Part shown: in pieces, positions 30,184 to 53,495 of the stretch
Layout of the letters: every line of letters begins with the position of its first letter
How positions within the stretch are numbered: position 1 is the first letter of the stretch
From: Persicimonas caeni
GTDB lineage: Bacteria > Myxococcota_A > Bradymonadia > Bradymonadales > Bradymonadaceae
Direction: 5' to 3'
Assembly (NCBI RefSeq): GCF_006517175.1
Contig: NZ_CP041186.1
Coordinates: forward strand, 6,909,074-6,973,073
Length of the DNA stretch: 64,000 nt
Notes under the pieces: generated by a model
Database searches by the model: none
What the model was told of the DNA's origin: nothing
What the model saw: only the letters and a program-made list of their open reading frames with translations
Made by a program: the position numbers and the translations under genes

Positions 30184-30197
30184 CTGTACTTACTGGT

Positions 30198-30419
30198 GGC
30201 ATTGCAGGAGTGTAGCGATGCCCCCGGCCGGCCTACGCCGGCCGCCCCCCGCGCGGAGCGGCGGGGGGCTCTATGGTCGACCTGGCGGAGGTGGTTCAGA
30301 AGCGAACCTTCGAGAATCGACCACTCCTAATAGGCCGACCATAAAGGCCCCCGTTGCTTCGCACGGGGGCCGGGGTGCGGAGGCACCCGGGAGCATTGCT
30401 GCGCATCGGCAATGCCTCC
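30198..30419. repeat. MITE-like repeat, copy 1
   Basis: Bounded by GGCATTGC (30198) and the inverse GCAATGCCTCC (30409-30419). The interior has several perfect hairpins, including GGCCCCCGT / ACGGGGGCC with an 8-nt loop at 30346-30371. 30216-30362 is nearly identical to 31116-31263. No ORF is credible inside. Confidence 0.75.
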
Positions 30420-30436
30420 AAATCGCAACGTCCCAA

Positions 30437-30542
30437 CAATCGACCAGTCCGAATAGGCCGACCATAAAGGCCCCGTAGCTTCGCACGGGGACCGGGGTGC
30501 GGAGGCGCCCCGGGGGCATCGCCGCGAACCGGCAATGCCTCC
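30437..30542. repeat. Partial copy of the same MITE-like repeat
   Basis: Repeats the right-hand half of copy 1: TAGGCCGACCATAAAGGCCC, a hairpin with the GTAGCTTCGCAC loop, and the terminal GGCAATGCCTCC. It ends three bases before the DUF559 stop codon. Confidence 0.7.
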
Positions 30543-30545
30543 ATC

Positions 30546-30941: not shown

Positions 30942-31332
30942 GAATCGCTCCGTTTTGCCTGTGTGATGTGAAACCTCATATAGGTTTTCGGCAAAATGGG
31001 TGGGATCGTTGCGTGCAGTTCGGCGAGATCGGGGCGTGGTGGCGGTTCGGGTGGGTTTTTTCTAGGGGGTCTCTGTTTGGGGCGGTCGACGGGTGGAGGC
31101 ATTGCGGATTCGCAACGATGCCCCCGGCCGGCCTTACGCCGGCCGCCCCCCGCGCGGAGCGGCGGGGGGCTATATGGTCGACTTGGCGGAGGTGGTTCAG
31201 AGGCGAACCTGCGAGAATCGACCACTCCTAATAGGCCGACCATAAAGGCCCCCGTTGCTTCGCCCACTCGATCCGAATCAGCGAGGAGGCGTGGGGGGCG
31301 ACCGATCGGGAGGATCGTCAAGAAAACAAAAA

Positions 31333-31395
31333 GGATGTAATGATTTTGTTCGACCAAAAACAAACCGGGCACAAAGCCTGGAAATCATTACATCC
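31333..31395 (+). promoter_or_regulatory. 14-bp perfect inverted repeat just before the transposase start
   Basis: GGATGTAATGATTT (31333-31346) is mirrored exactly by AAATCATTACATCC (31382-31395). The right arm ends directly before the GGAGA ribosome binding site (31396-31400). Such hairpins in insertion sequences can block expression from outside transcripts, or the dyad may bind transposase. Confidence 0.55.
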
Positions 31396-31405
31396 GGAGA
31401 CGATC

Positions 31406-33592
31406 ATGCCAGACACTCGCCTCAATGTCAGCCTCCAAAATCACGAGCGTTCCGAGCCGCAGCGAGCAGTGCCCGCTCACTTCAACGAGTATATCGTAGC
31501 CTGCGAGCATCTGCGCGGTGAGGGCATTTTCGACGAGATCGAGCAGCAGTTTCGGCTCGACCGAAGCGGCTACCAGTTTATCGACGCGGTGCTGGCGGGG
31601 CTGGCCTTTTTTAGCGCCCAGCCCACGTACTCGGGGCTTCGTGGGATGCTCGACGAAGTCAATGGCCGAGGGTGGTCGCAGGCCCTGGCAGCGGCAGGGG
31701 GGCGAGACAGGCTTTGCAGCCAGGCATCGATGTCGCGCGTTTTGGGCGACATTCCCGAGGAGATGGCGTGTCGATTCAAAGAGCAGTTGCTCGGAGCATG
31801 GACCCCGGCGGCGCCTTTTTCGGCCTACGAGGCTGTGCTGTGGCGCGATTGCACCGGGCAGTCCTGGCACGGCTTCGCCATCGATGGGCGCGTGCAGCCT
31901 TTTCGACGCCGGGCGCTGTGCGAGGGCGAGGAGTACCCGCCCGCCCGCCGTCGGGTCGACAGCTTGGGCGCCAAACCGGGCTATTCGGGCCGAAAGCGCG
32001 CCGACGTCCAGATGGAGACGTCGATCTTGGAGCATCTGGGAAGCGGGCTTTATCTGGCGATGAATTATGCGGCCGGAAACGGCCAGCTCAGCGATGACTT
32101 TGCGCAGGGCCTGGCACTGATAGAGCGATGGGCCAACGCCCGCGGGCTCGAGCCCGGCCGGTGTTTTCTGGCCATCGACGGCCACCAGGGAGGGTTTGCC
32201 CAGCTGCGCGCGGCGCTTCGCTCGCCGGTGCACTTTTTGACCCGGCTTCGTTACTACGAGCCGCTCAAAGATCCTGCGGTGCGCGCTCAGCTGGCCCAGC
32301 AGACATGGCAGAAGGTCGACGATTCCCGAAGCGGCCCCCAGCGCTGGGCGACCGAAATGGGCGACTACTGGCTTGGTGACGCTCGGGCCAGGCTGGTGGT
32401 CAGCTGCTTTGAGCCGACCGACGGCAAGAAGCGCGGCGCCGGATGCTTTGTCGACGGGCTTCAGTACGAGGTCTACGCCTGCGATCTCGACCCGACGGCC
32501 TATCCGGCCGCAGAAGTCGTCACCACCTACTACGCCCGGGCCGGCCGCCAGGAAAACGGCTTTGCCCGACTCGATCGGCACATGGATCTGGAGAAGATGT
32601 ACTCGGATTGCGCGCCCGGCCAGCAGGTCATGATGGCGCTGGGGGTTTGGCTACACAATTTCAGGGCCATTAGGGGCGCCGAGCTCTTCGGCGAGCTCGA
32701 GCCTATCGACGTCGAGGCTGCGCCGCGCAAGCTCGAATCGGCCGACACGCTGCCGCTCGCGCCGACCGGTGCCCCCGCACCCCACGCAGCCCCAGCGGCA
32801 GGCCGTCCGGAGCCGGCCTCGCTCGCCGTCGGCTTCGAGGCATCGCACGCCTGGTGGCAGGGTGTCACCCGAAAGGTCGAGCAGCGCATCGGTGGGCTCG
32901 ATGGATTCAGCTATGACGCTCAAACCCGCCAGATCGGCTGTGCGAAAGGCGCCTATCTGGGCCTGTCCGGAATGCGCCAGCGCGGCGGCCGTGTGATCGT
33001 CAGATTCCGCATCGGCTCCCCACAAGCCTGCCAGGGCTGCCCCTTCCGCCGCGAATGCACCTCGTCGACGTCGCCGACCTACAGAAAAGAGATCGAGATT
33101 CACATGCCGCCGCCAGCCACGCTGGGTGCGCACGACGAGCCAGCTGCGATCCAAGGCCAAGATAAGGCCGCTGACGCGCCGACGCATGGCAGTGATCCCG
33201 CTGATAAGGCGTCGCCCTCAACGGCCCTGCTAGGGCTTAGACTGTCGATTCCTGACGACTTGCCCGAACCCGGCGACCTCCACATGCGTCAGCCGGTACT
33301 GGTCGCAAGCACCTTTCGCAACGCCTTTCGAAAAGCTGCTCGAAGCCTCAAGGTCGAGGTGACAAAATCTCCACCGGATTCCTCAACTCGCCACGTAGAC
33401 TATCTGGCGATGACCGCCGCACGTCGCCAGCGACGCCGGAAAACCTGGGACGAGCGGCTACAGTGGAACAGCCTGCCCCAGCAGGCCAACATAACAATCG
33501 CCATCAGAGCCCCCTTAACTGCCGCACGTCTTTTACCGGAGGCAAATACCCCCGCATCGGATCCCCCCTTTCAAAACAAGGCGAATAGGTGA
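31406..33592 (+). CDS. DDE transposase with C-terminal cysteine cluster
   Basis: A 728-residue protein. ATG 31406 is preferred over the in-frame 31340 because GGAGA lies five bases upstream and 31340 falls inside the inverted repeat. The middle part carries an RNase H-type layout (WRDCTGQSWHGFAIDGR, CFLAIDGHQGGFAQLRAAL) and YYARAGRQENGFARLDRHMD, resembling the YxxRxxxE region of IS4/IS1380 transposases. The C-terminal third has YDAQTRQIGCAKGAYLGLS and CQGCPFRRECTSS, the Cys pattern seen at the end of IS1182-type transposases. A ~165-residue tail follows. The stop lies inside the right terminal repeat. It appears intact. Confidence 0.8.
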   Translation: MPDTRLNVSLQNHERSEPQRAVPAHFNEYIVACEHLRGEGIFDEIEQQFRLDRSGYQFIDAVLAGLAFFSAQPTYSGLRGMLDEVNGRGWSQALAAAGGRDRLCSQASMSRVLGDIPEEMACRFKEQLLGAWTPAAPFSAYEAVLWRDCTGQSWHGFAIDGRVQPFRRRALCEGEEYPPARRRVDSLGAKPGYSGRKRADVQMETSILEHLGSGLYLAMNYAAGNGQLSDDFAQGLALIERWANARGLEPGRCFLAIDGHQGGFAQLRAALRSPVHFLTRLRYYEPLKDPAVRAQLAQQTWQKVDDSRSGPQRWATEMGDYWLGDARARLVVSCFEPTDGKKRGAGCFVDGLQYEVYACDLDPTAYPAAEVVTTYYARAGRQENGFARLDRHMDLEKMYSDCAPGQQVMMALGVWLHNFRAIRGAELFGELEPIDVEAAPRKLESADTLPLAPTGAPAPHAAPAAGRPEPASLAVGFEASHAWWQGVTRKVEQRIGGLDGFSYDAQTRQIGCAKGAYLGLSGMRQRGGRVIVRFRIGSPQACQGCPFRRECTSSTSPTYRKEIEIHMPPPATLGAHDEPAAIQGQDKAADAPTHGSDPADKASPSTALLGLRLSIPDDLPEPGDLHMRQPVLVASTFRNAFRKAARSLKVEVTKSPPDSSTRHVDYLAMTAARRQRRRKTWDERLQWNSLPQQANITIAIRAPLTAARLLPEANTPASDPPFQNKANR

Positions 33593-33766
33593 TCCGAATC
33601 GAGTGGGCTTCGCACGGGGGCCGGGGTGCGGAGGCACCCCGGGGGCATCGCCGCGAACCAGCAATGCCTCCACATCGCAACCTCCCCAAGAAAATCCACC
33701 AATCCCGCCCTCCCACACGTACTACCTCCCACGACTCACCGAACCACCGTGATGGGAGGGAACGAA

Positions 33767-35413
33767 GTGCTCGACAAGACGAACTGGCTGACCGCATTGG
33801 CGATGATTCTGACGACCGTCGCCTGCAGCGACCCACCCTCACCCCCAGCCCGAGACGTGGGCACGGCGGACACCGCCGACGGCGGCCTCGCCGACGCCCT
33901 GACGACGCGGGACGAGCCCGACATCGCCACCGACGACGAGGTCGTCTTCGGGCGCGTGCCGCCCAACACCGACGATTCCAACTGGGAGGGTGAGTGGAAG
34001 CGCATGACCGTGCAGAACGTGGGCGAGGCGCCGCTTGTCATCGAGGACATCTACGTGACCGGCAGCGACAACTTTCGAGTGACGTATCCGGCACAAGGAG
34101 CCGAGGTGGGGGACGTGTCCCGTGACACCGAGAGTTGGCCCGAGACGCTCGCACCCGACGCCTCCTTCGATGTGCGCGTCTGGTTCAGGCCGGACGACAA
34201 CCTGCCCGAGCAAGCTACGCTCGTCTTCGAGACGAACGACCCCGACGAGTCGGTGCGGGAAGTTCTGCTGTGGGGCGGCTCCGGGCCGCCATGTCTGGAG
34301 GTTCGGCCTGGCGACCAGATCAACCTGGCGCAGGGCGAGCCGGGGCAGGAGGTGCGCGAGCGGGTTTACCTGCAGAACTGCAGCCGCAGCCGCCCGTTGC
34401 AGGTCTCGCGCGTCCAGATGAGCGACGATGACGAAGGGCGCTTTGGTCTCGAGAGTGCGTCGACGCCGGTCGAGGTGCCGCCCGGCGAGCGCATTTGGTT
34501 CGACGTCGTCTTTCAGTCGGTCGACGAGCAGACGCACACGGGAGAGGTGCTCATCACGAGCGACGACCCGTCCCACGGGCAGATTCGGTTGCCCGTGTTC
34601 GCCCGCGGCGCCTCGGATACCGACTGCCCGTTTGCCAGAGCCGACGCCTGGGTAGCGGGCTCCGACGAGCGAACGCGACCGATCGTGACGAGCCCGCTGG
34701 AGGGGATCATGCTCGACGCGTCGCGAAGCTTCGATTTCGACGGCTCGGTGGAGCGCTACGAGTGGACGATCTTGGAGCGCCCCGAGGGTTCCTCGGCGCG
34801 CATTCTGCCGTCGAGCGATTCTGTCGAGGCGCGCTTCTTCGTCGACCTGGCGGGCTTCTACATGGTCGGGCTCGAGGTGTACGACGACGAGGGCAACGCG
34901 AGTTGCAATGGGCGGCAACTCGTCATCGTCGAGGCGGTAGTCGCCGATGACATCTATATCGAGCTTCTCTGGGAGACGCCCGGCGACTCCGATCCAACCG
35001 ACTACGACGGGACGGACCTCGACCTGCACTACCTGCATCCGCAGGGAGAGTGGGACCAAGCGCCGTGGGATGTCTGGGGCTACAACGCCATGCCTGACTG
35101 GGGCATGCAGGGAGACCAGGAGGACGATCCGCGCCTTCTGAGCGACGACACCTACGGAGGCGGGCCCGAGGTCATCGCCCACAGTCAGCTCGAGAGTGTC
35201 GAGTATCGTCTGGGCGTCTTCTATCGCGGCGACAATGACCTCGGCCCGAGCTATGCGACCGTGCGGGTGTACGTGGGCGGGGAGCTCGAGTGGGCGTATC
35301 CCGCCAAGGAGTTAAGCCAGACCGGGGCGTTCTGGGAGGTTGCCACCATCGAAGGGCCCGATGGGAGCATCACGCCCGTCGATGAGGTGTATGAGGGGTT
35401 TCCGGAGGAGTGA
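33767..35413 (+). CDS. PKD/ASH-type lipoprotein, paralog A
   Basis: A 548-residue lipoprotein. GTG 33767 is preferred over the in-frame ATG 33752: GGAGG (33755-33759) is correctly spaced before the GTG, and the signal peptide then starts MLDKTNWL and ends TTVAC at residue 20. The domain order is two beta-sandwich repeats like ASH/SPD-2/Hydin or choice-of-anchor D (residues ~60-170 and ~180-290), then a PKD-like segment (DASRSFDFDGSVERYEWTI). The C-terminal domain contains DGTDLDLHYLHPQGEWD and ends EGFPEE. It is probably exposed on the cell surface or in the periplasm. Function unknown. The next gene is its tandem paralog. Confidence 0.82.
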   Translation: MLDKTNWLTALAMILTTVACSDPPSPPARDVGTADTADGGLADALTTRDEPDIATDDEVVFGRVPPNTDDSNWEGEWKRMTVQNVGEAPLVIEDIYVTGSDNFRVTYPAQGAEVGDVSRDTESWPETLAPDASFDVRVWFRPDDNLPEQATLVFETNDPDESVREVLLWGGSGPPCLEVRPGDQINLAQGEPGQEVRERVYLQNCSRSRPLQVSRVQMSDDDEGRFGLESASTPVEVPPGERIWFDVVFQSVDEQTHTGEVLITSDDPSHGQIRLPVFARGASDTDCPFARADAWVAGSDERTRPIVTSPLEGIMLDASRSFDFDGSVERYEWTILERPEGSSARILPSSDSVEARFFVDLAGFYMVGLEVYDDEGNASCNGRQLVIVEAVVADDIYIELLWETPGDSDPTDYDGTDLDLHYLHPQGEWDQAPWDVWGYNAMPDWGMQGDQEDDPRLLSDDTYGGGPEVIAHSQLESVEYRLGVFYRGDNDLGPSYATVRVYVGGELEWAYPAKELSQTGAFWEVATIEGPDGSITPVDEVYEGFPEE

Positions 35414-35775
35414 GGTCGAGGGTGGGGAGGCATTGCAGGCGAGGGCAAGAGGCCCCCGCACCGAACAGTTCGCGCACATTCGGTGCGAGTGCTTCCAGCT
35501 CTCGCAGGCGAGGGCAAGATGCCGCCGCACCGAACAGTTCGCGCGAAAGTCTTCCGCAAATGTGCTTGGATTGGCAGAAACGGTCGATTCTGACCCGCGA
35601 CCGCGCCCCGTAGTTGAACTGCAAAGAGCTCGCCTCTCTCACCTGCTTCAAACCCACCCAATTCGCTCGTCCGAGACCGCATTGCATTCTTGAACGCCAT
35701 GCAGCTCTAAACGGCGGGGCGCGGTCGCGGTCGCGGTCGCGGGCGCGGGGCTGCCAAGTTGAGCTCCCAAAAAAG
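35414..35775. repeat. Repeat tail of unit 1 (empty intron site and foldback element)
   Basis: Two copies of a GCGAGGGCAAGA-CCCCCGCACCGAACAGTTCGCGC type motif (35445 and 35510 areas) precede a foldback element. The foldback arms 35594-35610 and 35715-35730 are 16-bp perfect inverses of CGCGACCGCGCCCCG type. 35530|35531 is the uninterrupted counterpart of the group II intron site in unit 2. 35531-35775 is repeated at 43508-43752. No gene is seen. Confidence 0.8.
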
Positions 35776-35846
35776 CCACCAATCCCGCCCTCCCACACGT
35801 ACTACCTCCCACGACTCACCGAACCACCCTGATGGGAGGGAACGAA

Positions 35847-37496
35847 GTGCTCGACAAGACGAACTGGCTGACCGCATTGGCGATGATTCTGACGACCGTC
35901 GCCTGCAGCGACCCACCCTCACCCCCAGCCCGAGACGTGGGCACGGCGGACACCGCCGACGGCGGCCTCGCCGACGCCCTGACGACGCGGGACGAGCCCG
36001 ACATCGCCACCGACGACGAGGTCGTCTTCGGGCGCGTGCCGCCCAACACCGACGATTCCAACTGGGAGGGTGAGTGGAAGCGCACGACCGTGCAGAACGT
36101 GGGCGAGGCGCCGCTTGTCATCGAGGACATCTACGTGACCGGCAGCGACAACTTTCGAGTGACGTATCCGGCACAAGGAGCCGAGGTGCGCGACGTGTCC
36201 CGCGATACCGAGAGTTGGCCCGGGACGCTCGCGCCCGACGCCTCCTTCGATGTGCGCGTGTGGTTCAGGCCGGACGACAACCTGCCCGAGAGTGGGCAAC
36301 TCGTCTTCGAGACAAACGACCCCGACGAGTCGATTTCCGCCGTCGAGTTGTCGGCGAATGCAGGGTTCCCGTGTCTCGAACTGCTTCCAAGTGACGAGGT
36401 TCATCTGGGTGAAGGGGCGCCGGGTCAGGTCTTGCGCGAAACAGTTGCTCTGCGCAACTGCAGTCGATCGAAGCCGCTCGAGTTGGAGGACATCGGCATT
36501 CGGAACGACGATAGTGGGGTCTTTCATGTCGAAGAGGCTGAGACGCCGTTTGTGTTGGCGCCGGGAGAGCGCGCTCGGTTCGACGTGGTCGCTAGCATCG
36601 TCGACGACGGTGGGCCCTACCGAGCCGAGTTGCTCATCCAGAGCAGCGACCCGGCGAATGCGCGTGTGCGCCTTCCGGTGCTAGCGTTTGGGGTTTCCCA
36701 TACCGATTGTCCCTTTGCTCACGCGGTGGCGTGGACCGAGGACAACCGCGCTCCACGCACCGTGCTCGAAACGGCACCCCTGACCGTTGTCGAGTTCGAC
36801 GGCTCGCGCAGCTTCGACTCCAACGGTAGCGTCGAACGCTACGAGTGGACGGTGCTGTCGCGTCCCCACGGCTCGACGCAGCGGCTGGTGCCAGCCAACG
36901 ACGCCGTGAGTCCGCGGCTCTTCATCGACGTGGTTGGTACTTACGAAGTCGCACTCGAGGCGTACGACGGTGACGGCAACGCGAGTTGCAACGAGCGTCA
37001 GGTCATCGAGGTTCGCGCCGTGCCGGAAGACGACGTCTATATCGAACTCGTGTGGGACACGCCTGCAGATCCCGACCCCACTGACAACTTTGGGAGCGAC
37101 GTAGATCTGCACTACTTGCATCCGCACGGACGCTGGGACGATCCCCCTTATGATGTGTTCTGGCGAAACCCATCGCCTGACTGGGGGGACTTTGGCGATG
37201 CGTCGGACGATCCGTCGTTCGATCGTGACGACACGGAAGGCGCCGGTCCCGAGGTGGTCACCCACAACGGGCTCGAAAGTCTGAGCTACCGCATAGGCGT
37301 CTACTACTACAGCGACACGACTCTCGGCCCGAGTTATGCGACCGTGCGGGTGTACGTGGGCGGGGAGCTCGAGTGGGCGTATCCCGCCAAGGAGTTGGGC
37401 CAGACCGGGGCGTTCTGGGAGGTTGCCACCATCGAAGGGTCCGATGGGATCATCACGCCGGTTGATGAGATGTATGAGGGGTTTCCGGAGGAGTGA
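35847..37496 (+). CDS. PKD/ASH-type lipoprotein, paralog B
   Basis: A 549-residue paralog of the preceding gene with the same GTG start logic (GGAGG before GTG 35847) and the same lipobox. The first ~170 residues and last ~55 are almost identical to paralog A. The middle keeps the order (beta-sandwich repeats, DGSRSFDSNGSVERYEWTV PKD-like segment, GSDVDLHYLHPHGRWD) but differs at many positions. This sharp contrast suggests recent duplication plus replacement of the centre, or gene conversion of the ends. The function is unknown and presumably surface-related. Confidence 0.82.
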   Translation: MLDKTNWLTALAMILTTVACSDPPSPPARDVGTADTADGGLADALTTRDEPDIATDDEVVFGRVPPNTDDSNWEGEWKRTTVQNVGEAPLVIEDIYVTGSDNFRVTYPAQGAEVRDVSRDTESWPGTLAPDASFDVRVWFRPDDNLPESGQLVFETNDPDESISAVELSANAGFPCLELLPSDEVHLGEGAPGQVLRETVALRNCSRSKPLELEDIGIRNDDSGVFHVEEAETPFVLAPGERARFDVVASIVDDGGPYRAELLIQSSDPANARVRLPVLAFGVSHTDCPFAHAVAWTEDNRAPRTVLETAPLTVVEFDGSRSFDSNGSVERYEWTVLSRPHGSTQRLVPANDAVSPRLFIDVVGTYEVALEAYDGDGNASCNERQVIEVRAVPEDDVYIELVWDTPADPDPTDNFGSDVDLHYLHPHGRWDDPPYDVFWRNPSPDWGDFGDASDDPSFDRDDTEGAGPEVVTHNGLESLSYRIGVYYYSDTTLGPSYATVRVYVGGELEWAYPAKELGQTGAFWEVATIEGSDGIITPVDEMYEGFPEE

Positions 37497-37613
37497 GGTC
37501 GAGGGTGGGGAGGTATTGCAGACGAGGGCAAGATGCCCCCGCACCGAACAGTTCGCGCGCATTCGGTGCGAGTGCTTCCAGCTCTCGCAGACGAGGGCAA
37601 GATGCCCCCGCAC
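37497..37613. repeat. Repeat tail of unit 2, part before the intron
   Basis: Aligns base for base in length with 35414-35530 of unit 1, including the two GAGGGCAAGA-type motifs, and stops at CCGCAC where the group II intron begins. The tail resumes at 43508. Confidence 0.85.
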
Positions 37614-38210
37614 GTGCGCTGGAGAGTTTAGACAGCGCGATGGTGAGAGTCCATCCGGGGCAAGTTCCGCCCCGAAGTTGAAGGTAACTGCGTCGCCGCG
37701 AGGCGGGGTGGGAAGCAACCGAGGTAACGAAGAACCAGTCCGTAGCGAAAGCGAACTCGATTCAGCCAAAGGCACTCGGCGAGCCTATGTGCGGCCGGCG
37801 AAGCCCGGATGCCGACGAGCGGTAAAACAGATACGGGAGAAGGGCAAAACCCGTACCCCAAAGCCCACGGCCCCGAACAGACACGGCTCGGTTCGAGGGA
37901 ACGAAACAGGAGCGTACGCTCGAAGGAAGCCACGCGCACCAAGGAACACACGGTGACGCGATGGGAGTGCATGGTGGTTGGAGACAGAATGGTTCTTAGT
38001 GGCTGTCTAGATGAATCCAGGAGATCTGTCACAGACCGGGGTAAGTGATCGTAGCTGGTTCGCCCAAAGTGACCACGGCTGGTTCGGCCAAAGTGATCGG
38101 CCCTGGTTCGGCCAAAGTGATCGCAAAATCGGGCGGATGTCGATGACCTGAAACGCTCAGACTGGGAGAATGCAGAGCAGATGGCTTTAGCCCCTGCTCT
38201 GGAGGACCCG

Positions 38211-39803
38211 ATGAGCAATGAGAGGATCGACATGCATCGATTACAAGACCTGGTGCGGATGCACCGTGAGGGCGTTGGCTGCCGCGAGATTGCCCGCCTT
38301 CTAAAGATGAGTCCCAATACCGAGCGCAAATACCGCCACGCGCTCGATGAGGCTGGATTGCTCAAAGGCGAGCCTTCCGAGATCATCCCACTGGACGAGC
38401 TCAAGCAGGCGGTCGCAGAGCTCCTTCCGACGAGCACGCCGCCCCAGGAGACCTCCACGGTCGAGCCGTGGCGCGCACAGATTGAAGAGATGTACGAGCG
38501 CACGCGCTCACCCCGAGCCATCTGGGACAGGCTTCGGCTCGAGCACGCCGATTTCGACGGCAGCCTGTCCGCCGTCAAGCGCATGTGCGCCCGCATCAAA
38601 GCCGACAGAGGCCCACGTCCGCAAGATGTGGTCATTCGCGTCGAGACCGCGCCAGGAGAGATTGCCCAGGTCGACTTTGGCTATGTCGGCCGACTCTTCG
38701 ACCCGATGAGCGGCAAAGTCAGAAAGGCTTATGCCTTCGTGATGGTCCTGGGCTTCAGCCGTCTGATGTACGTCGACCTGGTTTTCGACCAAAAGGTCGA
38801 CACCTGGCTTCGCCTGCACGTCGACGCCTTCGAGTACTTCGGCGGCGTGCCCGAGACGGTGGTGCCGGACAATCTCAAAGCGGCGGTTGTGCGCTGCTAT
38901 TTCGGGCTCAAGGACAAACCGGAGCTCAACCGAAGCTACCGTGAGCTTGCTCGCCACTACGGCTTTATGATTGACCCGACCCCGCCGTATGCCCCTGAAA
39001 AGAAGGGCAAAGTCGAGTCGGCGGTCAAGTACGTCAAATCAAACTTCTTTGCGCCGCGCGCCCTCGAGAAGCTCGACGAGGCCAAGGAGCAATTGAGCCT
39101 GTGGCTCGACCAGATTGCCAATCGGCGAGTCCACGGCACCACTCACAGGGTGCCCCGCGAGCACTTCGACGCTGAGGAGGCAGAAGCACTTAAAGCACTG
39201 CCGCCGACGCCCTTTGTGCCGGTGGTCTGGAAGAAGGCCAAGGTCCACCGCGACAGCCACGTCGAATTCGAGCGCCGGCTCTACTCGGTGCCGTTTCGGC
39301 TCATCGGCCAGACCGTCTGGATCCGAGCTCGAGGCGCAAGCGTCGATATCTTCTATGACGACGAGCTGTGCACCTCGCACAAGCGAAGCGGTCCCAGAAA
39401 GAGCACCCATGAGGCACACCTTCCTGAGGGGCGGCGCGATCTGCGCCACCGAAGCCGTCAGTGGTGGCAGGACAAGGCTGACCGGATGAGCCCGATCGTC
39501 GGCGAATATGTCGAGGAGGTCTTCGGGGCCGACGATGTCTTCAATCAGCTGCGCGCAGTCCAGGCGATCGTGTCGTACCTCGAGCAGTTCCCCGTCGAGC
39601 GTGCCGAGGGCGCCTGCCGAAGGGCTCGCGCTTTCGGAAACTACACCTATCAAGGCATCAAGCGGATTCTGGTGGAGGGCATCGACTTAGAGCCTGCCAT
39701 CCCGCAGGCCGTCTACGTGCACGGCAAGCTCGCCCACCCGCGTTTTGCCCGAAATTTCGAGGAGCTGGCCCTGGCCGAGGAGGTCTACCATGAGCGCTCG
39801 TGA
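38211..39803 (+). CDS. istA: IS21-family transposase IstA
   Basis: A 530-residue protein; ATG 38211 is chosen for GGAGG five bases upstream. An N-terminal helix-turn-helix (GCREIARLLKMSPNTERKY) is followed by the rve-type catalytic core. Candidate DDE residues are in AQVDFGYVGR, VVPDNLKAAV and KKGKVESAVKY, and a C-terminal beta domain (YSVPFRLIGQTVWIRA) follows. It cuts and joins the element ends with IstB. It appears intact and overlaps istB by 14 bp. Confidence 0.93.
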   Translation: MSNERIDMHRLQDLVRMHREGVGCREIARLLKMSPNTERKYRHALDEAGLLKGEPSEIIPLDELKQAVAELLPTSTPPQETSTVEPWRAQIEEMYERTRSPRAIWDRLRLEHADFDGSLSAVKRMCARIKADRGPRPQDVVIRVETAPGEIAQVDFGYVGRLFDPMSGKVRKAYAFVMVLGFSRLMYVDLVFDQKVDTWLRLHVDAFEYFGGVPETVVPDNLKAAVVRCYFGLKDKPELNRSYRELARHYGFMIDPTPPYAPEKKGKVESAVKYVKSNFFAPRALEKLDEAKEQLSLWLDQIANRRVHGTTHRVPREHFDAEEAEALKALPPTPFVPVVWKKAKVHRDSHVEFERRLYSVPFRLIGQTVWIRARGASVDIFYDDELCTSHKRSGPRKSTHEAHLPEGRRDLRHRSRQWWQDKADRMSPIVGEYVEEVFGADDVFNQLRAVQAIVSYLEQFPVERAEGACRRARAFGNYTYQGIKRILVEGIDLEPAIPQAVYVHGKLAHPRFARNFEELALAEEVYHERS

Positions 39804-40542
39804 TGATCTGGTCCCCATCCTCAAGCGCCTGCGGCTGTCGGGGCTTCTCAATACGCTGGAGCTTCGCGCCGAGCAGGCCGTCGACGACAAGCTTGGCTAC
39901 GTCGACTTTGTCTATCGACTGCTCCACGACGAGGTGGAGCGCCGCGATGCCAATAAGCTGACGCGCTTGATTCGCCAGGCTGATTTCGAGGCCCACAAAA
40001 CGCTTCAGGATTTCGATTTCAGCTTCAATCCCAAGATCCCACGCGAGCGGATCATCGAGCTCGGCACCACAAGCTTTGTCGAGCGCCAAGAAAACGTGCT
40101 CCTGGTCGGCCCGGCCGGCACGGGCAAGTCGCACATCGCCCAGGCGCTGGGTCACCGGGCCTGTCGAGCCGGCTACAAGACCAGGTATGTCGCCGCACAT
40201 CAGCTTTTGAGCGAGCTTCGAGCAGCCCGCGCCGACCGCAGCTGGGACAAGCTGATGTACAAGCTGTGCGCGGTCGACCTCCTGATCATCGACGATCTTG
40301 GGCTGCGTCCGCTGGCCCAGGACGAGCCGGTCGACCTGTACGAGCTGATACGCCGCCGCTACGAGCAGGGCTCGCTCGTGATCACATCCAACCGCGCCAT
40401 CGACGAGTGGTACGCCATGTTTGGTGACGCGCTGCTCGCCAGCTCGGCGATGGACCGACTGCTACACCACTGCCACGTCGTCACGCTCGACGGGCACTCG
40501 TATCGAAACCCGCCGTCGAAAGCCCGAGCCAAGACGGCCTAA
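39790..40542 (+). CDS. istB: IS21-family helper ATPase IstB
   Basis: A 250-residue AAA+ protein related to DnaC. Walker A is in LLVGPAGTGKSHIAQAL, Walker B in DLLIIDDLGL and sensor in LVITSNRAIDEW. It selects target DNA and stimulates IstA. ATG 39790 fits family length; an in-frame start at 39745 would add 15 residues without similarity. It appears intact. Confidence 0.93.
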   Translation: MSARDDLVPILKRLRLSGLLNTLELRAEQAVDDKLGYVDFVYRLLHDEVERRDANKLTRLIRQADFEAHKTLQDFDFSFNPKIPRERIIELGTTSFVERQENVLLVGPAGTGKSHIAQALGHRACRAGYKTRYVAAHQLLSELRAARADRSWDKLMYKLCAVDLLIIDDLGLRPLAQDEPVDLYELIRRRYEQGSLVITSNRAIDEWYAMFGDALLASSAMDRLLHHCHVVTLDGHSYRNPPSKARAKTA

Positions 40543-40879
40543 ACCCGATCACTTTGGCCGAACCAGCACCTTGAGGAGAACGACGAGAAATCGCCCATGA
40601 CATCCGCCCGAAAATCGCGATCACTTTGGCCGAACTGAGCGCGATCAGTTTGCCCGTCCGTTGACAGAGATCTGCCGACGGGTCAAAAGACGCCGGCAGA
40701 AGTCAGAGCATTCGTAGTAGCGAGGAAACCTGGGAAAGCAGGTGGAGCGAAGGGATGCAGGAAAGTGGAATCAGGAAGGAAAAGAGCGATGGAAGACCAA
40801 TCGACCCCAGGTGTCAGGATAGTTGTCGCCTCTTCGATTGTTAGTTTCATGGAACGAAGGGGCAACAAGGAGATCCGAG

Positions 40880-41410
40880 ATGAGTCCATATCCTAAAGAG
40901 CTAAAAGAGCGTCTTGTTCGACGGATGCTCGACGAAAAGATCAGCCCGGAGAGCCTGGCCGAGCTGAGCGGCGTGGGCAAGACGACGCTTTGGCGGTGGA
41001 GAAAGGCGGCGCTCGATGGTGCCTTGCGTGCTGAGGCAAAGCCAGAGTCGGCACCCGAGAGACGCTCTTCGGCCGAAAAGCTGCGTCTTGTGATGGCCGC
41101 CGAGGCGCTCGAGGGCAAGGAGTTTGGCGCTTTCCTGCGCGAGGAAGGAGTGCATACAAGCGACCTTCGACGCTGGAGAGCGCAGATGTACGAGGGGCTT
41201 GATGGACGCACCAGGGCCAAGAAGGAGGCCACCCAGAAGCTGCGCCAGGCCCAACGGGACAAGCGCGAACTCGAAAGCGAGCTTCGCCGAAAGGAGGCCG
41301 CGCTGGCCGAGACGGCCGCCTTGTTGGTGCTCTCAAAAAAGGCGCGCCGGTTGTGGGGGGACGAGGACGCTCCCATGATCGGCAAGAGCGACAAGTCATC
41401 CTCGACATGA
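40880..41410 (+). CDS. IS3-family transposase OrfA
   Basis: A 176-residue protein starting at ATG 40880 after AAGGAGAT (40867-40874). An N-terminal helix-turn-helix (PYPKELKERLVRRMLDEKIS, GVGKTTLWRWRKA) binds the element ends. The C-terminal half is a charged coiled coil (KKEATQKLRQAQRDKRELES) for multimerisation. OrfA alone usually represses; fusion with OrfB by -1 frameshifting makes the active transposase. Confidence 0.88.
   Translation: MSPYPKELKERLVRRMLDEKISPESLAELSGVGKTTLWRWRKAALDGALRAEAKPESAPERRSSAEKLRLVMAAEALEGKEFGAFLREEGVHTSDLRRWRAQMYEGLDGRTRAKKEATQKLRQAQRDKRELESELRRKEAALAETAALLVLSKKARRLWGDEDAPMIGKSDKSSST
41335..41341 (+). promoter_or_regulatory. A6G slippery site for -1 ribosomal frameshifting
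   Basis: AAAAAAG is read A_AAA_AAG in the orfA frame (codons TCA AAA AAG). orfB lies in the -1 frame and starts 12 bases later, the standard arrangement for an OrfAB fusion in the IS3 family. Confidence 0.8.
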
Positions 41411-42402
41411 TCGCAGAGGCGGTCTCCCACGGCGCGCGTCAGGCCCAGGCCTGTCGGACCCTGGGCATCAGCGAGCGCACCATACAGCGGTGGCGAAAAG
41501 ACCCGCAGGCCGAGGACGCTCGCCAGGGACCCCACAGTCGGTGTGCGCACGCGCTCACCGACGAGGAGCGAGCACAGGTGGTCGCCATCGCCACAGGTCG
41601 TGAATTCTGTGATGTGAGCCCCCGGCAGATCGTATGCAGCCTGGCCGACCGGGGCGAGTATGTCGCCAGCGAGTCGACATTTTACCGCGTGTTGCGCGAA
41701 GAGAAGATGATGACCCACCGCCAGCCAAGCCGGCCGCCGAAGCCCAGGCCGAAGCCCGAATTAGTGGCCGCCAGCCCCGGCCAGGTCTGGGTGTGGGATA
41801 TCACATACTTGCCCACCCAGGTACGCGGCCGGTTTGTCTACCTTTACTGGATCATGGACTTGTTCAGCCGCAAGATCGTCGGCTTTAGCGTCGAAGACCA
41901 AGAATCGATGGAGCTGTCGAGCCGCCTCATTGAAAAGACGATCCTCGCCGAACAGGTCGAGGCGAGCGGACTTTGCATCCACGCCGACAACGGGGCTGCG
42001 ATGAAGGGCTCGACGCTTCTGGCGACGCTGGAGCGCCTGGAGGTGGCCGCTTCGTTTAGCCGCCCGGGCGTCTCCAACGACAACCCTCACTGCGAATCGA
42101 GCTTTCGCACGCTCAAATACCGGCCTGGCTACCCCAAAAAGCCGCTCGACGGCGTGCATGAATGGTCTGAGTGGGTCGAGGCGTTTGTCCGCTGGTACAA
42201 CACCGAGCACTATCACAGCGGGATCGGCTGGGTGACCCCCGAGCAGCGCCACGCGGGCGAAGACGTCGAGCTGCTACAAAGACGCCAAAAGCTCTATGAA
42301 CAGGCGCGCCAAAAGAATCCCGCACGCTGGAGTCGAAGGCCGCGAGGATGGACGCGCCCCGAAGAGGTGCGGCTTGCGCCGCTCAATTTACAAGAGACGT
42401 AG
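41353..42402 (+). CDS. IS3-family transposase OrfB (integrase core)
   Basis: A 349-residue frame, probably expressed mainly as the frameshifted OrfAB product. It has a helix-turn-helix-like start (CRTLGISERTIQRWRK) and then the rve catalytic core. The DDE residues lie in WVWDITYLPT, CIHADNGAAMKG and NPHCESSFRTLKY, and a final WYNTEHYHSGIGWVTPEQRH motif follows. It appears intact, so the element may still be active. Confidence 0.92.
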   Translation: MGGRGRSHDRQERQVILDMIAEAVSHGARQAQACRTLGISERTIQRWRKDPQAEDARQGPHSRCAHALTDEERAQVVAIATGREFCDVSPRQIVCSLADRGEYVASESTFYRVLREEKMMTHRQPSRPPKPRPKPELVAASPGQVWVWDITYLPTQVRGRFVYLYWIMDLFSRKIVGFSVEDQESMELSSRLIEKTILAEQVEASGLCIHADNGAAMKGSTLLATLERLEVAASFSRPGVSNDNPHCESSFRTLKYRPGYPKKPLDGVHEWSEWVEAFVRWYNTEHYHSGIGWVTPEQRHAGEDVELLQRRQKLYEQARQKNPARWSRRPRGWTRPEEVRLAPLNLQET

Positions 42403-42431: not shown

Positions 42432-43427
42432 CATACCGACCCAAGCCGGGTCGAGCCGAGAAGCGACCGCTGGGGATTCCGACCGTAGAGGATCGGATCG
42501 TCCAGACGGCGCTCAAGATGGTGCTGGAGCCGATTTACGAGCGAGATTTTGTTCGTCATTCCTACGGCTTTCGACCTCAACGGGGAGCCAAAGATGCGCT
42601 GCGACGCGTCGACGGGCTTCTCAAGCAAGGTTATCGGTGGGTGGTGGATGCCGACCTGAAGGGGTACTTCGACACGATCGACCATGATTTGCTCATGGCG
42701 CGCGTGGAGGAGAAGGTCTCAGACGGACGCATTCTCGAGCTCATCAATGCCTTTCTTACCTGCGAGGTCGTCGACCAAGGGGAAAGCCAAAAGCCCCACA
42801 GAGGCACGCCACAGGGCGGTGTGATTAGCCCGCTCCTGGCAAATATCTTTCTCGATCCGCTCGACCACCTGATGGAAGAGCAAGGGTGTGAGATGGTGCG
42901 TTACGCCGACGATTTTGTGATTCTATGCCGGGACAAAGAGCAAGCCGACAAGGCGCTCGACGTGGTCAGAAAGTGGGTGCAAGCCAACGAACTGACGCTA
43001 CATCCGGAGAAGACCCAACTCGTCGACGAGTCCGAGGGAAGTTTCGACTTTCTGGGCTACGCCTTCAAGCGCGGGAACAAGTACCCGAGCAAGAAGGCCA
43101 AACGGAGGTTTCTTTGACCGGATTCGGCAATTGACCCCGCGCACCAGTGGCCACAGCTTGGCTACCATCATCGAGGCGATCAATCGCACCGTCCGCGGAT
43201 GGTACGAATATTTCAAGCACAGTTATTTCAACGTGTTTGACAGCCTCGACGGCAAGATCCGTAGGCGACTGCGCGCCATTCTGCGCAAGCGCTTCAAGAT
43301 CTCGGGCCACACCAATCACACCGATAATGTGCGATGGCCCAACGCCTATTTTGCCAACCACGGGCTTTTCTTTATGGCCGAAGCCCGACGGCTGGAACTC
43401 GAGTCCTTACGAAAAGGAACCCGCTGA
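42432..43427 (+). pseudogene. Group II intron reverse transcriptase/maturase, truncated and frameshifted
   Basis: The frame restarts at the IS3 border with TYRPKPGRAEKRPLGIPTVE, corresponding to the RPLGIP region normally ~80-100 residues into the protein. Upstream only a possible ATG at ~40785 and about eight codons remain before the IS. RT motifs follow: DADLKGYFDTIDHDLL, GTPQGGVISPLLANI and the catalytic YADDFVIL (~42902). The frame stops at 43117. The maturase domain X (VRGWYEYFKHSYFNVFDSLD, RWPNAYFANHGLFFM) continues in another frame to 43427, consistent with a one-base insertion near 43109. Not functional. Confidence 0.9.
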
Positions 43428-43507: not shown

Positions 43508-43752
43508 CGAACAGTTCGCGCGAAAGTCTTCCGTAAATGTGTTTGGATTGGCGGAAACGGTCGATTCTGACCCGCGACCGTGCCCGCGCCCGCGCCCCGC
43601 AGTTGAACTGCAAAGAGATCGCCTCTCTCACCTGCTTCAAACCCACCCAATTCGCTCGTCCGAGACCGCATTGCATTCTTGAAGGCCCTGCAGCTCTAAA
43701 CGGCGGGGCGCGGTCGCGGGCGCGGGCTGCCAAGTTGAGCTCCCAATAAAAC
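43508..43752. repeat. Repeat tail of unit 2 after the intron (foldback element copy 2)
   Basis: Matches 35531-35775 almost throughout, including the interior block from AGTTGAACTGCAAAGAG to GCAGCTCTAAAC. The GC-rich arms differ by whole CGCGGTCG-type words. CCACCAATCCCGCC follows at 43753. No gene lies between here and the stop of the next gene at 43778. Confidence 0.85.
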
Positions 43753-43777
43753 CCACCAATCCCGCCAAGACAGAACC

Positions 43778-48328
<4,551 letters not shown>

Positions 48329-48509: not shown

Positions 48510-51500
48510 TCAGTCCTCGAGCACGCGGAACTCGACGCGGCGGTTTTTGGCGCGCGCCTCGTCGGAGGTGCCTTCGACCATCGGCTTGGACTCACCGAAG
48601 CCTTTGTACTCGAGGCGCTTCTTGGCGATGTTGCCGTTTCGCACCAAGTAACGCACCACCGAGCGGGCGCGCTTGCGGCTCAGCTCGAGGTTGTCCTCGT
48701 CGTCGCCGCGGTCGTCGGCGTGGCCTTCGACCATCAGGCTCAAGTTCGGGTTCTCCTGCAGGACGCCGATGATCTCGTCGAGCACCTTGTCCGAGGCCGG
48801 CAAGAGCTTGTCGGAGCCGGTCTCGAAGCGAATGGTGTGCACGATGACGATGGAGTCCTTCTTGAACTCGTCGGGGCAGCCGTCGTCGTCCTGGAAGCTG
48901 TTCATCGTCTCGGGCTTGTCGGGGCAGTTGTCGTTGAGGTCGGCGATCTTGTCGCCGTCGTTGTCCTCGTCGGGGCAACCGTCGTCGTCCTCGAAGCCAT
49001 CTTTGTCCTCGGCTTTAGCCGGGCACTGGTCGTCGTTGTCGGCGAGGCCGTCACCGTCGTTGTCGTCGGGGCAGCCGTCGCTGTCTTCGAAGCCGTCTTT
49101 GTCCTCGGCGTCATCGACGCATTTGTCGTCGCGGTCGGCGATGCCGTCGGCGTCTGTGTCGGGCAGCGGGCAGCCGTCGGCGTCGACCGGGCCGGCGTAA
49201 TCCTCGGGGGCGTCGGGGCAGGGGTGGGGCGGCTCGGTCTCTTCGACGGGCTCGGTCTTCTCGACCGTCTCGACCGGCTCTTCGGCGGGGGCGTAGGCCA
49301 CGTCGAGGAACGCGCGCCAGGCGGGCGTTCCCGCCTCACGACCGAGGCCGGGGCCGCCACCGACGGTCGCGACCATTGGGCCGAAGCGGCTAGCCAGGCC
49401 CAGGTTGAATTGCTGGCTCGACTGCGAGCTCGCCAGGCCGTAGTGGCCGGCGTACTCGACGAGTCCTTGCAGGGTGTCGCCCATGATTTCGGTGCGCGTG
49501 CCGAGGCCAAAGCTGATCAGGTTCTCCTGCTCGCTGCCCTCGAAGGTCTGCGCCGGTCCGTGCTGGTAACCCACGTTGAAGAGGGCGAGGACAGGGCCGA
49601 AGCTGCGGTCGGCGATGAGGTTGAGGCCTCCGGCGAGTCCGCTGCGGCTCGCGAGGGCTTCGTCGCTACCGGTCGGAAAATAAGCCAGCGCTTGCGCAGC
49701 CAGGCCCAACGGGTCCTCGCCGCGGCGCATGAAACTGTATTTGACCTGCAGGCCGACGTCTCCCAGTCCGCTGGTGCCGATGGAGCTGAAGTTGGCGTCG
49801 ACGTCCTGGGTGAGCAACATCGGAGCGACCAACGTGGCGGACAGGCTGTCGATAAGCCCGACGGTCGCACGCAGCTGCATGATTTGGCTGCTGTTGATGA
49901 CCGGCGCGAGTTCCTTGGTGGGGTCGTCGCGGTCGACGAGTTGCACCGGAGAGTCGGCGTAGCTGTAGGTCAGGCCGAACCGATACTCGTACTGGCCGAT
50001 GGGGTCGGAGCCCTCGACGGTGATCGAACCGGTGTCGAGGCCGGTGGGCTGGAACTTGAGCAGGTTGTAGCTGTCCTGCGCCTGCGCAGCGCTCGGAATG
50101 CAGACGAGCAGGGCGACCGCCACGAGACCGGCCGACGCCTTGGCCTGCGGGCGGCGTCGGCGCCACAGGGCGCCTGCGGCCAGGAGCATCAGCAGAATGA
50201 TACTCGCGTCGGGGGTCGAGCCGCCGGTCGAGTCACACGCGCAGCCGGCGCCTGCCGACATCGCGTTGCCGGGGCGGCGGTGGCCCGGGTAGTCGTCGGG
50301 GTTGAGCGGATCGGTCTCCTCGTCGACCTCGACGCCGTCGTCGTAGCCGTCACCGTCGGTGTCGGGCAGCAGCGGGTCGGTGCCCAGCTCGCCTTCTTCG
50401 TCGTCGGTCAGGCCGTCGTTGTCGTCGTCGGCGTCGCACGCGTCGCCTTCGCCGTCACCGTCGGTGTCCGTCTGCTCGGGGTTGGCGACTACCGGGCAGT
50501 TGTCGTCGTCGTCGAGCACGGTGTCGCCGTCGTTGTCGTCGACGCAGGCGTCGCCGGTGCCGTCACCGTCGGAGTCGATCTGCTCGGGGTTGTTCACCAG
50601 ACGGCAGTTGTCTTGGCCGTCTTCAATGGTGTCGTCGTCCGAGTCGGGGTCTTGATAGTCGGGTACGCCGTCGCCGTTGGTGTCGATGGCGTCGGTGTCG
50701 AGGTCGTCGTCGCCGGCTTCGTCGGCGTCGGTCACGCCGTCGTCGTCGGAGTCGTCGTCGAGGGCGTCGATGGTGCCGTCCGAATCGGTGTCGACCGGGT
50801 TTTCGACGTCGTCACCGTACTCTTCGGCGTCGCCGATATTGTCGCCGTCACTGTCGACGAGCGTCGGGTCGGTGCCGTTGGCGTTCTCGATGTCGTCGCT
50901 CAGGCCGTCGCCGTCGGTGTCGTCGTCGCACACGTCGCCGGTGCCGTCGCCGTCGGTGTCGTCCTGGCTTGCGTTGGCGTCGACGCGGCAGTTGTCATCG
51001 GCGTCGACCACGCCGTCGCCGTCGGAATCGGTGTCCTGGAAGTCGGGCGTGCCGTCGCCATCGGTGTCGACGGGCTCGGTCGCCAGGTCGGCGTCACCGG
51101 CCTCGTCGGCATCGGTCGTCCCGTCGCCGTCGGAGTCGGTGTCGAGGGCGTCGAGGGTGCCGTCTTGGTCTGTGTCGTACGGGTTGTCGAGGTCGTCGCC
51201 CACTTCGTCGCCGTCAGCGATCGAGTCGCCGTCGCTGTCCGCGGTGGTCGGGTCGAGTCCGTTGTCGGTCTCCCAGGTGTCGGGCAGGCCATCGGAGTCC
51301 TCGTCGATATAGGTCACCTCGACGGTGATATCGCGCAGATCTTGGCCACCGGCCACGTCGACGACCTTGAGGTTCAGCGTGTGCGTGCCTGCCTCGTCCC
51401 ACGTCGGCGTCCAGCTATAGGCGCCGCTGGCCGAGTCGAGCGTGGCGTTGGTCGACATCGGCGAGACCGAGTAGGTCAGCACGTCGCCGGCGTCGGGGTC

Positions 51501-53495
51501 CTGGGCGTCGAGTTGGATGTCGAGCGTGTCGCCTTCGACGACCGTGAAGGTCTCGCCGTCGGCGGGCGTGGGCGCGATGAACTCGGGCGCGTCGTTGATC
51601 GCCGTCACGGTGATCGTCACCGTCACCACGTTCGAGTCGGAGGTGACGTCGTTTGCCACGTAGGTGAAGCTGTCGGTGCCGTTGAAGTCGGCGTCGGGCG
51701 TGTAGTCGAAGGACCCGTCGCCGTTCAGCGTGAGAATGCCGTTGGAGACATCGGTCTGCAGCACGGCGGTCAGGTTGTCGCCGTCGGCGTCGGTGTCGTT
51801 GTCGAGCACGCCGGGCGCCGCCACGCTAAGCGCGGCGTCCTCGTCGGTGGTGTAGGCGTCTGCGGCCGCCACCGGCACAGGGTCGCCCGCGTCGCACAGG
51901 CCGTCGCCGTCGGCATCGGGGCCGTCGTTGGCCGGGTCGATATTCGAGCCCGCCGCAAAGTCGGTGCTCGCAGTCGCCGAGCAGTCGTCGCAGCTATCGC
52001 CGTCGCCGTCGGTGCACGAGGACGGGTCGAGCGGGGCGATGTCGGCGCGGTCCAGGGCGCCATCGTTGTCATCGTCGGCGTCGCAGGCGTCACCTTCGGC
52101 GTCCGAGTCGGTGTTGGTCTGGTCGGCGTTGGCCAGCAGCGGGCAGTTGTCGGTCGCGTCGTCGACGCCGTCGCCGTCATCGTCGGTGTCGCAGGCGTCG
52201 CCGGTGCCATCGGAGTCGGTGTCGTCCTGGCTGGCGTTGGCGTCGGCAGGGCAGTTGTCCGAGCAATTGAGAACGCCGTCGCCGTCGTCGTCAGTGTCGG
52301 AGACCATCACCGTGTAGCTCTGAACGTCGGCGCCTCCGTCTCCGTCGGAGACCTCGACGGTGATGCCGTAGCTGGTGAGCTGCCGACAGGTCGGCGTCCA
52401 GGTGAGCGTGTCGCCGGAGACGCTAGCGCCCACGGGCGCAACATTGATCGAGTAGGTCAGCGGGTCCGCCGCGCCGGCCGGGTCGGTGGCGCTCATAACG
52501 TAGCTGTAGGGCTGGCCGGCGGTGGCCGACATGGTCGGCGTGGAGGTGAACGTCGGGCCGACGTTGTCGACGGTGACCGTCATCGAGTCGGTCACGCAGT
52601 AGCCGCTGCTCCCGCAGGCGCGCACGCCCAGCTCACAGGTGGACGGGCCGTCGAGCGTGGCTGCGTCGAAGGTGGCCGAGCCGCCGGTGGCGTCGTCGTA
52701 GGTGAACCCGGAGGTGCAATCGAGGTCCCAGTCGATGCTCGAGCAGCTGCCGGTGCAGTTGGCCGAGTAGCTCGCGCTGCTGCCTTCATCGACGTTCGAC
52801 GGGCCGGTAATGGTCGCGTCGATGGTCGCCGCGCTCCAGATATTGCCGAAAAAAGTGGCGTTGTCGGCCGACCCGTCGAAGCAACTCGGGCTTCCCACGA
52901 AGTTCGTGTCGCCAATCGCGATAAACCGGCCGTTGATGCCCACGAGCGTATCATTACTGCTCGGCATGCGGAGCAGGGGAGTGGCGTTGCTGATGCGACT
53001 GCCCCACCCCATGCGATAGGTACTCACGCCTGCGGTGAGCGGATGGAGGACGACGCGGCTGCCGGTTCCGCATCCGGAATCGTAATCGCCGCCGGCGAAC
53101 AGATTACCCATGCCCAGTTGGCTGGTCAGCGCGTTAAATACGGGGATTGCGCTGGGCGAGTAGCTGCCGGCCTCGACCACGCCGATGATCCAGCCGCCGG
53201 CGTTGTAAAAGTTAGCCAGCGTGTTGCGGCTCGACGCCGAAAGCGACGTGTTCGCGTACAGGACGATGATCCGATAGTTGGCCAAGTTGCTCAGGGTCGT
53301 CGAACGATCGACGCCGGCCGCGCCGGCCGCCGTCATCGCGTTCTGCAGTCGAGTTACGGAGCTGCCGATGCCGCCTTCGCCGTCGTAGACGAGCACGCGG
53401 TTGCCCTGCTGGGCGTGAGCCGTCGACGCAGTAAGAGTGATAAAAAGTGCTAAGAATACGCCAATTAGGGATTGCTGAATGCGTAACGCGTTCAT
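48510..53495 (-). CDS. Giant surface protein B: paralog with the same internal tag and OmpA end
   Basis: A 1661-residue paralog of the 43778-48328 product, encoded immediately upstream on the same strand. Same order: signal peptide (AHAQQ), ThuA-like domain (VLVYDGEGG, HPLTAGVSTY), Ig-like and TSP3 repeats, cadherin/tandem-95 block (VLDNDTDADGD) and a longer TSP3 array. At ~1080-1118 CACDSTGGSTPDAS is followed by a hydrophobic segment and WRRRRPQ. A second signal-like segment ends PSAAQAQ, followed by a barrel-like domain, an acidic TSP3 segment (DKCVDDAEDKDGFEDSDGCP) and an OmpA domain (VEGHADDRGDDEDNLELSRKR). The internal tag is conserved, with CDSTGGS in both copies. Likely role: calcium-stabilised cell-surface structure anchored to peptidoglycan. 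Confidence 0.88.
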   Translation of the reverse strand: MNALRIQQSLIGVFLALFITLTASTAHAQQGNRVLVYDGEGGIGSSVTRLQNAMTAAGAAGVDRSTTLSNLANYRIIVLYANTSLSASSRNTLANFYNAGGWIIGVVEAGSYSPSAIPVFNALTSQLGMGNLFAGGDYDSGCGTGSRVVLHPLTAGVSTYRMGWGSRISNATPLLRMPSSNDTLVGINGRFIAIGDTNFVGSPSCFDGSADNATFFGNIWSAATIDATITGPSNVDEGSSASYSANCTGSCSSIDWDLDCTSGFTYDDATGGSATFDAATLDGPSTCELGVRACGSSGYCVTDSMTVTVDNVGPTFTSTPTMSATAGQPYSYVMSATDPAGAADPLTYSINVAPVGASVSGDTLTWTPTCRQLTSYGITVEVSDGDGGADVQSYTVMVSDTDDDGDGVLNCSDNCPADANASQDDTDSDGTGDACDTDDDGDGVDDATDNCPLLANADQTNTDSDAEGDACDADDDNDGALDRADIAPLDPSSCTDGDGDSCDDCSATASTDFAAGSNIDPANDGPDADGDGLCDAGDPVPVAAADAYTTDEDAALSVAAPGVLDNDTDADGDNLTAVLQTDVSNGILTLNGDGSFDYTPDADFNGTDSFTYVANDVTSDSNVVTVTITVTAINDAPEFIAPTPADGETFTVVEGDTLDIQLDAQDPDAGDVLTYSVSPMSTNATLDSASGAYSWTPTWDEAGTHTLNLKVVDVAGGQDLRDITVEVTYIDEDSDGLPDTWETDNGLDPTTADSDGDSIADGDEVGDDLDNPYDTDQDGTLDALDTDSDGDGTTDADEAGDADLATEPVDTDGDGTPDFQDTDSDGDGVVDADDNCRVDANASQDDTDGDGTGDVCDDDTDGDGLSDDIENANGTDPTLVDSDGDNIGDAEEYGDDVENPVDTDSDGTIDALDDDSDDDGVTDADEAGDDDLDTDAIDTNGDGVPDYQDPDSDDDTIEDGQDNCRLVNNPEQIDSDGDGTGDACVDDNDGDTVLDDDDNCPVVANPEQTDTDGDGEGDACDADDDNDGLTDDEEGELGTDPLLPDTDGDGYDDGVEVDEETDPLNPDDYPGHRRPGNAMSAGAGCACDSTGGSTPDASIILLMLLAAGALWRRRRPQAKASAGLVAVALLVCIPSAAQAQDSYNLLKFQPTGLDTGSITVEGSDPIGQYEYRFGLTYSYADSPVQLVDRDDPTKELAPVINSSQIMQLRATVGLIDSLSATLVAPMLLTQDVDANFSSIGTSGLGDVGLQVKYSFMRRGEDPLGLAAQALAYFPTGSDEALASRSGLAGGLNLIADRSFGPVLALFNVGYQHGPAQTFEGSEQENLISFGLGTRTEIMGDTLQGLVEYAGHYGLASSQSSQQFNLGLASRFGPMVATVGGGPGLGREAGTPAWRAFLDVAYAPAEEPVETVEKTEPVEETEPPHPCPDAPEDYAGPVDADGCPLPDTDADGIADRDDKCVDDAEDKDGFEDSDGCPDDNDGDGLADNDDQCPAKAEDKDGFEDDDGCPDEDNDGDKIADLNDNCPDKPETMNSFQDDDGCPDEFKKDSIVIVHTIRFETGSDKLLPASDKVLDEIIGVLQENPNLSLMVEGHADDRGDDEDNLELSRKRARSVVRYLVRNGNIAKKRLEYKGFGESKPMVEGTSDEARAKNRRVEFRVLED

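Follow-up and report, generated by a model that had tools for sequence, protein, structure and literature searches.

Near-identical ends around an old, diverged centre in two tandem lipoprotein-like genes of Persicimonas caeni: a probable record of repeated gene conversion

Organisation of the locus

The window, meaning the whole 64,000 nt stretch of Persicimonas caeni DNA analysed (contig NZ_CP041186.1, positions 6,909,074 to 6,973,073), comes from a genome of 8,047,206 bases in one contig. It contains two tandem genes on the forward strand, A and B, the starts of which are 2,080 nt apart. These genes and the features relevant to their comparison are, in window coordinates:

33752-35413, + strand: gene A, encoding a 553 aa lipoprotein-like protein; likely donor of the ends
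35832-37496, + strand: gene B, encoding a 554 aa tandem paralogue of A; likely recipient
33696-34210, + strand: putative 5' converted tract in A (partner 35776-36290; 9 mismatches in 515 positions)
35776-36290, + strand: putative 5' converted tract in B (partner 33696-34210)
34253-35251, + strand: diverged centre of A, comprising the second Ig domain, the PKD domain and the first part of the C-terminal domain
36333-37334, + strand: diverged centre of B, with a GC3 of 0.72, below that of its own ends and of A
35252-35530, + strand: putative 3' converted tract in A, the last 162 bp of the gene and 117 bp downstream (13 mismatches in 279 positions)
37335-37613, + strand: putative 3' converted tract in B (partner 35252-35530)
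35435-35545, + strand: dispersed 69 bp hairpin repeat, two units, within which the 3' homology of A ends; more than 100 matches genome-wide
35531-35789, + strand: dispersed element of about 250 bp forming the A-B spacer; second copy at 43508-43766

Both translations read MGGNEVLDKTNWLTALAMILTTVAC followed by SDPPSPP. In A, a signal peptide with a Cys at residue 25 is followed by choice-of-anchor-D/HYDIN-like Ig domains, a PKD domain and a C-terminal beta domain, and both proteins look like lipoproteins of this architecture, although their putative lipobox, with a Thr at -3, is weaker than the consensus. The C-terminal domain is conserved, having invariant W, D, H, P and E positions, and no Pfam model scored above its cut-off for this domain in A or B. 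About a dozen clear relatives are encoded in the genome, the closest of which is paralogue C (genome positions 4,092,186-4,093,700), bearing an extra N-terminal domain missing from A and B. Against the NCBIfam model for choice-of-anchor D proteins, NF012200, A (46.3) and C (74.4) score above the curated cut-off of 45 bits and B (38.3) falls below it; relative to NF012200 proteins, the A/B family has an additional PKD domain and the conserved C-terminal domain. The predicted structure model has a mean pLDDT of 87.8, and the Foldseek matches, HYDIN/Ig-type chains of several domains, have a low overall TM and provide no functional lead.

Each gene is followed by the 69 bp tandem repeat, containing a GCACCGAA...TTCGGTGC hairpin (35435-35545 after A, 37518-37613 after B). 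The last 24 bp or so of the spacer element overlap the start of the 5' homology; its two copies are 87% identical, and partial copies are found elsewhere, for example at G000:3173600-3173749. Another dispersed intergenic repeat is present in both orientations upstream of A (33607-33689) and between nearby genes (30356-30543, 31077-31160 and 30194-30259).

The pair is flanked by mobile element genes (31340-33592, 38181-40542, 40823-42402 and 42518-43117), including a DDE transposase-like ORF, an IS21-like istA/istB pair, an IS3-type pair and a group II intron reverse transcriptase fragment. Further downstream, on the reverse strand, are two large tandem proteins with thrombospondin-3-type repeats and an OmpA C-terminus (43778-48328 and 48510-53495), the first of which is partly similar to the outer membrane exchange protein TraB (206 bits, against a cut-off of 700). 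No conversion tract was found between these two, their identity being fairly even at around 50-81% per 50 codons.

Distribution of identity between A and B

The identity of A and B, computed in 50-base windows, climbs from background to 92-100% at around 33685-33696, 57-67 bp ahead of the ATG of A at 33752. As the preliminary description of this DNA had stated, the beginnings of the genes are almost the same from 33696 to 34210. The newest part of this tract, or core (33750-34108), contains a single mismatch, at 34005; it is followed by an older shoulder, with seven mismatches in 34109-34180 and an identity of about 93% over 34109-34210. Identity collapses at 34211 and, apart from a 33 bp island at 34220-34252, has gone from 34253. 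Through the centre it is 44-74% per window and around 60% overall, with only one in-frame 3-base indel in the alignment, in keeping with the strong divergence and retained order described before. Near-identity returns at 35252 and continues at about 95% to 35530, 117 bases beyond the stop codon of A, with seven mismatches in the 162 coding bases and six in the 117 non-coding bases. Hence the likeness previously ascribed to the last 160 bp or so of the genes is real, but the tract is longer, at around 279 bp. Similarly, the borders, described as sharp, are indeed localised, but that at the 5' side is stepped, divergence rising from around 0.3% to 7% and then to 40% or more.

Up to 84 consecutive codons are identical, whereas 20,000 shuffles produced at most 28, and a three-segment model, which was strongly better, divides the codons at residues 168 and 497. 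On the predicted structure model, the 5' border (residues 163-168) is at the junction of the first and second Ig domains, whereas the 3' border (around 495-500) lies inside the C-terminal domain; hence the borders do not follow modules in general. The similarity of both A and B to paralogue C likewise drops at residue 166, which may mean either that this junction has been used before or that the first Ig domain is more constrained. Both tracts run outwards as far as A and B remain homologous, and different dispersed repeats take over at these points.

Synonymous divergence and the ages of the parts

Substitution rates were estimated by the Nei-Gojobori method for separate residue segments. Between A and B, dS is 0.00 over residues 1-100 (S=74), 0.21 over residues 101-156 and 0.16 over the last 65 residues (490-554), whilst the three parts of the centre give 1.18, 1.09 and 1.60, near saturation. 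A synonymous-rate plot was among the checks proposed initially, and the divergence of the centre is evidently old, with the ends having been reset. As the non-coding flanks of the tracts are also near-identical, the contrast between ends and centre is present at synonymous and non-coding sites alike, indicating recombination rather than constraint. In the centre, dN (0.34-0.49) is well below dS, hence this region is under purifying selection.

The flanks differ in age. The 5' core has one mismatch in 358 positions, compared with 12 in 279 for the 3' tract (Fisher p = 0.0003), and a recount of the latter as 13 in 279 makes the contrast stronger; synonymous differences number none in 74 sites and about six in 44, respectively (p = 0.002). 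It is unlikely that the 5' core, the 5' shoulder and the 3' tract all result from one event, and their differing ages point to repeated conversion of the ends.

Origin of the diverged centres

When the whole genome was searched at the DNA level with either centre, no possible donor exceeded around 71% identity over any length. The best match elsewhere in the 8.05 Mb sequence, at 71%, is a full-length paralogue, and no silent partial copies of either centre, of the type that the preliminary description suggested looking for, were found in this single-contig genome. A scan of genome contigs for close relatives returned only one distant locus.

The protein was divided into four segments, each given its own tree: the N domain, the second Ig domain, PKD plus the first C-terminal part, and the final 63 residues. 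In quick trees A groups with B as its sister in all four (SH-aLRT 97-99), and careful trees of the two centre segments gave this pairing bootstrap/SH-aLRT values of 100/98 and 100/99. Pairing C with B or with A was rejected both for the second Ig domain (p-AU of 0.031 and 0.044, respectively) and for the PKD and C-terminal segment (0.001 and 0.0008). Over residues 396-485 the raw identity of B to C exceeds that of A to B, yet the trees reject an alliance of the B centre with C, and the excess would simply reflect a longer A branch. The path from A to B measures 0.05 at the N end, 1.46 in the second Ig domain, 0.96 in the PKD and C-terminal segment and 0.18 at the C end. A single topology with such unequal branch lengths argues for an old tandem duplication, the ends of which were later homogenised, with no outside cassette; since A and B are sisters throughout, the centre requires no foreign donor, and a foreign cassette there is rejected on the trees.

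The preliminary description had raised the swapping of central cassettes as an alternative to conversion of the ends. A would have been duplicated in tandem recently, and one centre then replaced by a divergent cassette from a paralogue or an outside source, as in antigenic variation. Such an exchange could account for the sharp borders, and potential sources might be sought among the dozen or so paralogues; furthermore, GC3 is 0.84 in the ends and centre of A and in the ends of B but 0.72 in the centre of B (B ends against B centre, p = 0.0017), which could be read as the mark of an imported centre. However, with neither a match above 71% nor a silent fragment in the genome, and with A and B closest to one another in both centre segments, a swap would call for an A/B-like donor gene that has since been lost. 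A single swap into a fresh duplicate also gives flanks of one age, whereas those observed differ, and the centre has a dN far below a dS exceeding 1. Cassette swapping is therefore an improbable origin for the pair.

Tandem pairs in related genomes

Many genomes of the class carry members of the A/B protein family as tandem arrays. Three species of the sibling genus g13 (G013, G016 and G018) have a common tandem pair, independent of A and B. The copies in G013 are 90-100% identical in most windows of the middle, but only 51-77% in the outermost parts, and the pattern is reversed in the comparison between species. Informative sites, summed over bins, group the G013 and G016 copies within species at 68 positions of the middle, against one that groups orthologues (three have the third pattern), whilst in the ends 57 group orthologues and six group copies within species (third pattern, eight). 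G013 and G018 agree, with corresponding counts of 56 against 6 in the middle and 55 against 8 in the ends; for G016 and G018 the middle is mixed (26 against 17) and the ends are orthologous (45 against 5). This shows conversion in tandem pairs of the A/B family, with the converted part placed oppositely, as a mirror image. The within- versus between-species comparison comes from this pair, the grouping of A and B themselves being that of one genome.

Elsewhere, identity is patchy in one array (G008), uniform in one pair (G005) and patchy without long identical tracts in four others (G002, G023, G025 and G033). At locus L061, two adjacent relatives (G000:2110797-2111864 and 2112219-2113244) carry PKD and C-terminal domains in one and Ig domains in the next, an arrangement resembling a family member broken into two genes.

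As the homogenised part in g13 is the middle, the centre cannot be regarded as a cassette dedicated to variation. In the silent-cassette systems of antigenic variation, such as Borrelia vlsE, Neisseria pilE/pilS and Anaplasma msp2, constant ends likewise surround a differing centre. However, A and B have no silent cassettes and no donor, their divergence is old and under purifying selection, and in species related to P. caeni it is the middle that stays constant. The likeness to variable surface antigens drawn initially is consequently not borne out.

The g13 pair also bears on whether successive unequal crossovers in a tandem array, through the birth and loss of hybrid copies, made the ends of A and B alike. 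Both tracts reach the edge of A-B homology, as copy loss would also produce, and dispersed repeats are found at those edges. Nevertheless, transient third copies would be needed twice, once per side, with the right copy lost each time, and in g13 the ends keep their orthologous order around the homogenised middle, which demands a double exchange or conversion; we regard crossovers as a very improbable route. A single duplication, after which the ends were held by strong purifying selection and the centre was under relaxed or diversifying selection, would suit the location of the signal peptide and anchor region in the ends, and the N-domain being also the part nearest to paralogue C (70%, against 36% in the second Ig domain), but has a negligible chance of being correct, as selection alone is refuted by the near-identity of the ends at synonymous (no differences in 74 sites) and non-coding positions, and by the high synonymous divergence of the aligned end segments from C.

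Conversion between A and B

From the patterns of divergence, it is very probable that the ends of A and B were overwritten by gene conversion after an old duplication, with the middles diverging. Conversion of the ends, one of the possibilities raised at the outset, is upheld by the contrast in synonymous rates, by A and B being sisters throughout and by the between-species demonstration in the sibling genus.

An old tandem duplication would have given rise to A and B, in a lipoprotein family found across the bacterial class. Homologous recombination between the neighbours, presumably RecA-dependent, would then have copied sequence without making the entire genes alike. At least two separate events, and probably three, of different ages appear to have overwritten the 5' end with its leader and the 3' end with its trailer, whilst the middles would have been spared, continuing to diverge under purifying selection. 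Copying was likely from A onto B, the GC3 values pointing to A as the source of the ends. The same figures would fit the writing of a B-type centre into a copy of A, a reading disfavoured because it needs a lost donor and leaves the different ages of the flanks unexplained.

Parallels and significance

The closest published parallel is in Helicobacter pylori, where the paralogous surface protein genes homA/homB and babA/babB exhibit segmental concerted evolution with borders within the genes (PMC2795765 and the work of Pride et al. that it cites). In these pairs, as in A and B, one segment groups within a strain through gene conversion whilst another evolves separately. However, strains were compared directly in H. 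pylori, and the middle is allele-rich there, whereas A and B come from one genome, in another phylum; in addition, both ends of A and B are converted, the proteins are unrelated, and A and B are not known to vary between alleles. In outline, the report on a duplicated PE_PGRS gene pair of tubercle bacilli describes rearrangements by gene conversion (PMC1762029), hence also recombination between copies of duplicated surface-associated genes, although in a different family and as strain-level events. No close case of concerted evolution among tandem lipoproteins of bacteria emerged from a literature search. A and B are thus a new instance in an unrelated family, a known process recorded in a new gene family.

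They reveal no new variation system, and are not a case of antigen switching. Rather, two tandem bacterial genes here preserve a clean natural trace of gene conversions that recurred at different times, accompanied by the mirror-image case in the sibling genus. They also serve as a warning that, in this expanded lipoprotein family, trees and domain comparisons based on whole genes will combine different histories. A broader idea, which we consider doubtful, is that segmental conversion in tandem arrays is a lasting, lineage-wide means of reshuffling surface choice-of-anchor-D/PKD lipoproteins. Were this true, export and anchor parts would be kept alike in some lineages and functional middles in others, and new surface mosaics would arise without silent cassettes.
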